Assembly (NCBI RefSeq): GCF_004014875.1
Contig: NZ_CP034929.1
Location: forward strand, 1,364,001 to 1,428,000
Reading direction: 5' to 3'
DNA length: 64,000 nt
Source of the DNA: Nocardioides yefusunii
GTDB lineage: Bacteria; Actinomycetota; Actinomycetes; Propionibacteriales; Nocardioidaceae
In this document: positions 19,525-21,233 of the stretch, one piece after another
Layout of the letters: each line of letters opens with the position of its first letter
Numbering within the stretch: the stretch's first letter is position 1
The notes under the pieces: model-generated
Told to the model about the DNA's origin: nothing
The model's input: only the letters and a program-made list of their open reading frames with translations
Database searches by the model: none
Translations under genes and position numbers: made by a program

Positions 19525-19540
19525 CCTGCCTCAGCTTCGT

Positions 19541-19592
19541 CGGGACGTCATAGGGATCGGGGCCTCTGGCCCTCGATTCCTATGACGTCCCG
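19541..19592. terminator. Hairpin between the E1 gene and the SIR2-like gene
   Basis: A perfect 14-base outer stem (19541-19554 and 19579-19592) continues inward for about 8 more pairs including G-T pairs. It lies between convergent genes and should terminate both. Confidence 0.6.
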
Positions 19593-19599
19593 CGGCGTT

Positions 19600-21075
19600 T
19601 CAGGGGCGAGGCGGCATCCAGCCGAGGCGTTCGGCCTGATGCAGCAACGGTGCCCAGAGTGTGGAGTCGCCGGGCAGCAGGTCGAGGACGGCCCGGACCT
19701 GGGTGGCCACCACCTGGTCGCGGGGCGGCAGCAGGCCTGCGAACCTCTCGTCGAGCAACCAGTGCTGAGGTCCGGATGCATGCACGCCCACCCGGTCGAG
19801 GAAGCGCAACAACGTGCGGTGCGGTCCGCCGGAGCCGTCGTCGCTGACGCGTATCCGGGCCAGCCGGTCGCCCCAGAGGGCGCTGACGTGCTCGCGCCCG
19901 GTCGGTGCGAGGTCGAGCAGTGTTCCGCACCGCTGGCCCGGGACGGGGTCTCCGGGGCGACGCAGCGCGTCGGTCAGTTCGGTCTCGTCGAGGTGGGACC
20001 CGAGCACCACCAGATGGTGAGTGGTCGCGAGGCCGCGCAGGACGGACGCGGCGGGGGCGTGCACGTTGGGTGGGGTGAGGCTGAGGTCCCCGGGGTGCTC
20101 GACGTCCCCGCGTGACTTCACCACCGTCGCCGTCGCGGTGACGTCCGCGCGCCACGGCAGGACCGCCGGCGGGTGGTCGTGGACCTCCTCGAGTGCCTGT
20201 TCGAGCATCGTGTCGGGGCAGGCGGTCACGACCTGGGTGATGCCGGTGCCGGCGACGAGGGCGTGCAGGAGGCCGGGACGCCCGGCGTCACGGACCGTCT
20301 CGACCCAGCGTCGTGTACTGCCGTCGGGGTCGTGGAGACGCACCAGCGAGGCCTGCTCGGCGGGCGAGACGGCACCGGAGTCGACGCCGGACAGGGACGG
20401 GATCGCGGCGAGGAGGGCGCGCAGTGTGCTCGTGTGGTCGGGGAGGCCTGCCGAGATCCCTGCGGCGGTGCCGAGGAAGAGCGCGGCCTGCCCGAGTGCT
20501 GCACGCCCGCCGAGGACCTGGGCGTGCTGGTCCAGTTCGGGGCCGAGGTCGCACGGCCAGGTGCGGCGGATCCACTGCGCCGCGGCGTACTCGCCCGCGT
20601 CCTGGGCGAGCAGGACGATGTCGACGCCGTGCTCGGCCGCCTGGTCACGCAGGGCCTCCAACTGGAGGCTGAGCCACGTGTGCGCTGCGAGGGGGAGCGC
20701 AGGTCGGCGCGTCGCGTCCGGGCGCGGCCGCGGGACAGGCAGCACGGGGACGGCGAGCAGTGGAAGAGTGCGCCCGGCTGACGACGGGAGGCGGGCCACA
20801 GCCACGGCGGAGACCACCCGTTTGAGGCGCAGCAGCACCTCGTCAGGGGTGCCGTCGTGGCTCTGCACCAGCCACACGGGGTGCTCGGGGACGCGGCCCC
20901 AGCCCTCGGGCCAACTGCGAGGACGCTCGGCCTTGCCGTCGGGCAGGAGGAACCGGTCGCGGGGATCGACCCAGCAGTCCTCGTCGAGCCCCAACAAGGC
21001 TGCGTCGTGCTGCACCGAGTCGAGGTGTCCGCGCACCACGTAGAGCTGTCCGGTGTTCGGCCTGCGTGATCCCAT
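19600..21075 (-). CDS. SIR2-fold protein with altered catalytic residues
   Basis: The 491-residue protein fits the bacterial SIR2-like family seen in defence-associated NAD hydrolases. An N-terminal domain (LYVVRGHLDS, VDIVLLAQDAGEYAAAQ) precedes the SIR2 core, which starts at ALFLGTAAGISAGLPD (residues 199-213). In this family the core should read GAGxS, then TNxD with catalytic Asn, then KxHGD with catalytic His. Here I see GTAAG, VVTACPD (Cys286 where Asn is expected) and KSRGD (Arg322 where His is expected). The late HLVVLGSHLDETELTDALRR motif is kept. It may bind NAD or ADP-ribose without cleaving it. ATG 21075 was chosen as start by the MGSRRPNTGQLYVVRG N-terminus. No partner gene is obvious. 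Confidence 0.65.
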   Translation of the reverse strand: MGSRRPNTGQLYVVRGHLDSVQHDAALLGLDEDCWVDPRDRFLLPDGKAERPRSWPEGWGRVPEHPVWLVQSHDGTPDEVLLRLKRVVSAVAVARLPSSAGRTLPLLAVPVLPVPRPRPDATRRPALPLAAHTWLSLQLEALRDQAAEHGVDIVLLAQDAGEYAAAQWIRRTWPCDLGPELDQHAQVLGGRAALGQAALFLGTAAGISAGLPDHTSTLRALLAAIPSLSGVDSGAVSPAEQASLVRLHDPDGSTRRWVETVRDAGRPGLLHALVAGTGITQVVTACPDTMLEQALEEVHDHPPAVLPWRADVTATATVVKSRGDVEHPGDLSLTPPNVHAPAASVLRGLATTHHLVVLGSHLDETELTDALRRPGDPVPGQRCGTLLDLAPTGREHVSALWGDRLARIRVSDDGSGGPHRTLLRFLDRVGVHASGPQHWLLDERFAGLLPPRDQVVATQVRAVLDLLPGDSTLWAPLLHQAERLGWMPPRP

Positions 21076-21220
21076 GCGCCACAGTGTGGCGGTTCGCGGC
21101 CGGGAGGAATGGACGTTCTCGCGCACTGAAGGATCAGGACGCAGACCCCCAGGTGCGACGGGCGCCTCGATCGGGGACGTCGGGAGGTGGGCGCCTGCCA
21201 AAGGTGTCGGTGGTCCTTCC

Positions 21221-21226
21221 TAGGCT
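21221..21226 (+). promoter_or_regulatory. -10 box for leaderless sbcD
   Basis: TAGGCT lies 7 bases before the sbcD ATG at 21234. It fixes the start and predicts a leaderless sbcDC transcript. Confidence 0.45.
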
Positions 21227-21233
21227 TCGCTCC

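Follow-up and report, generated by a model that had tools for sequence, protein, structure and literature searches.

A Macro-SIR2 protein of Nocardioides yefusunii and four relatives share lost pocket residues and may be retained pseudoenzymes

Dead SIR2 defence proteins are usually laboratory-made. The ThsA proteins of Thoeris systems (BcThsA, SeThsA and EcThsA) carry the SIR2 domain first and a C-terminal SLOG domain behind it, with a catalytic Asn, a catalytic His and a GAGxS motif. In the parts of PMC7272460 used here, the ThsA mutants N112A and H152A neither bind nor cleave NAD, and H152A is described by the authors as also disturbing assembly. Human FAM118A and FAM118B have a SIR2_2 fold too, and the available text of PMC12700824 reports that both have an active-site Asn and His, that mutating either stopped activity, that activity depends on assembly of the two paralogues, and that FAM118B forms filaments. 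BcThsA filaments are named in the title of structure 8bto. The tree legend of PMC12700824 names Macro as an additional domain of SIR2_2 proteins, so the Macro-SIR2 fusion itself is not new. ARG-centred conflict systems are listed in section 3.8 of PMC9503650 with ARG, a Nudix/NrtR regulator, ARPP-1, TY-Chap and HD; as described there, the neighbourhoods were sought without coupled ARTs or sirtuins, and Macro appears as an occasional extra. No naturally occurring clade of dead SIR2_2 proteins is described in the open-access literature that we searched.

Here, we analyze a window of 64,000 nucleotides of the genome of Nocardioides yefusunii, a soil-type bacterium, in which the product of one gene has the build of an NAD-destroying defence enzyme preceded by an ADP-ribose-reading domain. 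The gene is an intact open frame, and its parts are as follows:

19600..21075 (-): whole gene, 491 aa, macro-like domain, SIR2-like domain and short helical tail
20554..21075 (-): macro domain, residues 1-174
20701..20745 (-): site of the macro ligand loop, VLPVPRPRPDATRRP, residues 111-125; intact relatives mostly have GIxxGG or GTGxGG
19771..20553 (-): SIR2-like fold, predicted inactive, residues 175-435
20458..20472 (-): GTAAG replacing GAGxS, residues 202-206
20218..20220 (-): Cys286 replacing the catalytic Asn (ThsA N112)
20110..20112 (-): Arg322 replacing the catalytic His (ThsA H152)
19975..20010 (-): late motif VVLGSHLDETEL, residues 356-367; intact relatives have VGxSxxDDN
19603..19770 (-): C-terminal helical tail with a conserved WLLDERF motif, residues 436-491

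By itself the window protein has no match among the models of Pfam, PADLOC or NCBIfam, and the whole case consequently rests on its relatives and its fold. Fold prediction gives a macro fold for residues 1-174 and, for the second half, a SIR2 fold akin to those of ThsA and DSR2. The ThsA SIR2 domain is the best fold and profile match, with 8bto (BcThsA) among the fold matches; FAM118B is a fold match too. A first-pass annotation of this DNA had described a defence-type SIR2 domain order but had overlooked the macro domain. The layout differs from that of ThsA in having the macro domain first and only 56 residues after the SIR2 part, where ThsA has SLOG. The start at 21075 aligns with the starts of four related proteins, P0002-P0005.

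The family profile aligns the Asn of the TTN motif with ThsA Asn112 and the His of KxHG with His152 of 6lhx. At these positions the window protein has Cys286 and Arg322 – both catalytic residues of ThsA and FAM118A/FAM118B are thus missing – and GTAAG replaces GAGxS; the frame and the profile alignment bear out all three substitutions, which the first-pass annotation had placed at these residues. P0002-P0005, encoded on contigs of 1.8-6.5 kb, are 85, 60, 55 and 47% identical to the window protein and have all of the losses in common with it. Their GAGxS positions read GTSAG, GTEAG, GTSAG and GSSWA, three of the five proteins have Ala at the Cys286 position, and in the late motif all five have His361, Glu364 and Glu366 in place of Ser, Asp and Asn. 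GAG, TTN and KxHG are kept in all 31 other members of a 36-sequence alignment and lost in all five of this group. The alignment and tree hold matches of at least 400 residues at E 1e-30 with near-copies removed; fragments or weak matches in G069, G121, G016, G145, G209 and G235:C3 and the split copy in G155 are outside it, and row L010 lacks the N-terminus.

The five dead proteins form one group in every bootstrap replicate (100/100; 100%), on a stem of 1.31 changes per column, whereas support is weak (52/88 at the deep fork, with the root at midpoint) for the place where this clade joins the intact lineages. The tree and alignment show the pocket losses to have arisen once, in one ancestor. 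Because the losses are common to four further proteins at 85-47% identity within one clade, they are no one-strain accident. Comparison with the nearest homologues, which the first-pass annotation had proposed, thus found substitutions common to five proteins of one clade rather than a single altered strain among intact homologues, and its description of a protein that is catalytically dead and not simply decayed is well supported.

Among the matches that were motif-read, no sixth dead member emerged from a profile search (nine proteins), an N-terminal search (four) or searches of genomes, where 26 of 341 family genomes, 66 of 391 order genomes and, at 1e-20, 12 of 394 class genomes had matches. 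At order level the best 20 loci of the 66 matched genomes were taken for motif reading, and long matches in G420, G458, G478, G498, G521, G543 and others lie outside it. Seven of the 12 class-level genomes were new and five of these were motif-read: TTN is present in all five, HG in four and NG in one, with GAG unread in L129 and L132, where the script's match fell on the macro loop. The NG case is a distant relative (L131) that keeps GAG and TTN and has INGD where others have KxHGD, like the NG variants of Avs5. A pattern scan of genome contigs gave 183 matches with none confirmed, and rerunning it with alignment gave eight loci. Among the genomes with motifs read, the dead form is found in its own genome only, one of the 341 family genomes. 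In one genome (G155, locus L073) the Macro-SIR2 gene is split over two frames, by natural disruption or sequencing error.

The argument for inactivity is carried by the Asn and GAG losses, and the His loss weighs less. According to the parts of PMC12931631 cited here, PaAvs5-1 has an NG motif, with Asn where the His would be, and is nevertheless active, so that a His change alone would prove little. Together with L131, this might suggest that the window protein is an NADase or ADP-ribosyl transferase that works through other residues. By the same account, however, Avs5 retains both GAGxS and TTNxD and loses its activity in the N110A mutant, while Asn, GAG and His are all gone from the five clade members. 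No Asn is invariant in their alignment, and a relocated conserved Asn/His pair is therefore not seen in the sequences. A cryptic activity of this kind is very improbable, and we predict that in all likelihood the window protein is not an NADase.

The glycine-rich ligand loop of the macro domain is lost as well, with VLPVPRPRPD standing where most intact relatives have GIxxGG or GTGxGG. P0005 has an intermediate loop (GIPSAG) and complete SIR2 losses, an indication, though no proof, that the SIR2 pocket was lost before the macro loop. The proposal that the protein senses NAD or ADP-ribose is argued against by this evidence: sensing is unlikely, given that the GAG loop is gone, that N112A of ThsA is reported without NAD binding in the part of PMC7272460 used here, and that the macro loop is replaced.

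At its locus the window gene is an orphan between an aceE-like gene, which converges on it from one side, and sbcDC on the other, an arrangement that the first-pass annotation had described correctly as lying beside sbcDC and convergent to an E1 enzyme. A conserved aceE/gene/sbcDC locus was not found among relatives. SbcD matched at 1e-60 in 27 of 57 relatives besides the own genome, and within a flank of about 1.5 kb (0.46 kb in L083) none of the 27 SbcD loci has a window-gene homologue or aceE-like gene at 1e-10; absence of the gene from these flanks leaves a functional tie to sbcDC unsupported. Positions 19537-19595 of the window, between the converging aceE-like and SIR2-like genes, form a long, nearly perfect hairpin (about -50 kcal/mol as RNA) that is perhaps a shared terminator of the two genes. 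The divergent spacer to sbcD is short (21076-21233) and has the palindrome GCCACACTGTGGC directly upstream of the SIR2-like start; this palindrome is not over-represented in the window. A scan for sigma-70-type promoters and T-run terminators found none.

Within 20 kb around the window gene (L055) there are no matches at 1e-6 to ADP-ribosylglycohydrolase (ARH), NrtR, ARPP-1, TY-Chap or HD. The gene thus lies outside any cluster of the ARG-centred type, although its genome has ARG and ARPP-1 elsewhere: an ADP-ribosylglycohydrolase gene adjoins ARPP-1 and an HD-like stretch (~54-58 kb; L127:8248-12207), 1.33 Mb from the window gene. PF13289 has no match in the genome, the dead gene itself included, and neither has NrtR_WHD. 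Searching with family members found no copy besides the window gene, and so no active same-family partner is seen there. TIR_2 (PF13676, the ThsB-type partner and the one TIR model used) has no match in the 3.32 Mb single-contig genome; as a control it matched in 4 of 14 genomes.

Among Nocardioides and other Actinomycetota, intact Macro-SIR2_2 proteins – for example those of Nocardioides sp. Soil805 (L047), N. terrae (L049) and Kitasatospora arboriphila (L050) – have the same length, domain order and tail motif as the window protein, to which they are 28-34% identical, but keep GAG, TTN, KxHG and the glycine-rich macro loop, all of which it lacks. Their genomic settings are varied. We counted neighbours in 19 of the 21 genus and family genomes with long intact matches (G092 and G210 left out), taking 20 kb for each and 16 kb for L071. 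An NrtR-type regulator and ADP-ribosylglycohydrolase are both present at 1e-6 in 8 of the 19 (L056, L057, L059, L061, L062, L068, L069 and L070), some of which add ARPP-1, TY-Chap or HD; the pairing is absent in the other 11, and among eight named loci it is present only in L047, which is the L056 locus. Across the 19 loci ARPP-1 occurs in four, TY-Chap in six (four of them 28-30% identical to the TY-Chap query) and an HD protein in three, while five control loci centred on sbcD have none of these genes. The neighbours of part of the intact relatives therefore match the parts listed for ARG-centred systems in the cited section of PMC9503650. Within the genus (215 genomes), ARPP-1 is found in 20 genomes and full-length Macro-SIR2 also in 20 (for the latter, matches at 1e-50 or better with the own genome counted), and five genomes have both (hypergeometric p 0.026; 0.073 when the own genome is left out), a co-occurrence that is suggestive only; in the four shared genomes besides the own one, both genes are at most 15 kb apart. 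Very probably the intact relatives are effectors that cleave NAD+, in many cases within ADP-ribose conflict systems, and we infer that the window gene descends from an island gene.

An orphan locus without the usual partners nearby, a long stem branch and a dead form in one of 341 family genomes are what would be expected of a defence gene that has ceased to function and is constrained weakly or not at all, carried as a passenger and open because G+C-rich frames hold few stops. Neutral simulation from the window gene (two lineages, equilibrium G+C 0.70, 200 runs) gave means of 5.1 stops per pair at 60% identity and 6.9 at 48%, with 0.5% and 0% of runs stop-free, but there are no stop codons in the five clade frames, a comparison over five members in all that is biased, because the search finds long predicted proteins only. 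For the window/P0002 pair (85% identity) 11% of neutral runs were stop-free, and this pair alone is thus not decisive. Moreover, the intact set has 80 columns with conservation of 90% or more, of which 39 show no change in any of the five members (23 others are partly kept, 8 have gone to one fixed residue, and 10 are changed and variable), and G+C at codon positions 1/2/3 (0.80/0.53/0.88) follows a pattern like that of neighbouring genes. We consider the passenger explanation unlikely, and the dead protein has quite likely been kept for a function.

That function could lie in a repurposed pocket, with newly acquired charged residues letting the SIR2 cleft bind a different ligand or substrate. 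The fixed replacements include Arg322, Arg347, His361, Glu364 and Glu366, identical in all five clade members across 47-85% identity to the query. However, 80 of 261 SIR2 columns are invariant within the clade, which makes an invariant Arg322 unremarkable, and the Cys286 position, as noted above, is Ala in three of the five. Of the 14 changed conserved sites in the SIR2 domain 6 are fixed, compared with 20 of the 98 other changed sites, which is not significantly above background (Fisher p 0.088), and for this reason we do not claim a new pocket, which seems doubtful.

With both pockets having lost key residues alike in five relatives, the protein is probably a former defence enzyme that has been retained for a task other than catalysis, and we favor, with moderate confidence, a retained pseudoenzyme, once an effector, that acts through protein contacts. 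Its starting point would have been a two-domain Macro-SIR2_2 protein like the intact relatives; in one ancestor the SIR2 pocket (GAGxS, TTN and KxHG) would have lost its NAD-binding and catalytic residues with the fold kept, and the macro ligand loop would have degraded as well. The resulting protein would neither bind nor cut NAD, nor bind ADP-ribose, and may work through contacts such as self-assembly or occupying the partner of an active version, although for a contact or scaffold role as such we put the chances about even. The decoy or scaffold role raised in the first-pass annotation is the best remaining class of reading, except that a decoy borne by phages is unsupported, with no relative confirmed among 57 pattern matches on viral contigs. 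In a further version, a domesticated dead effector that retains the surfaces by which the toxic NADase assembles would serve as an immunity or decoy protein, its subunits poisoning incoming SIR2 effector assemblies or trapping phage inhibitors aimed at them; we regard this as quite unlikely.

With NrtR and ADP-ribosylglycohydrolase beside some of its genes, the intact Macro-SIR2 family brings a sirtuin module into ARG-centred systems. In the cited text those systems were looked for in settings free of coupled ARTs or sirtuins, so this link deserves to be followed up as an addition to them. A naturally occurring clade that has lost both the NAD pocket and the ADP-ribose loop but kept its fold would show that effectors of this family have separable non-enzymatic roles, and the dead clade provides a ready test protein.
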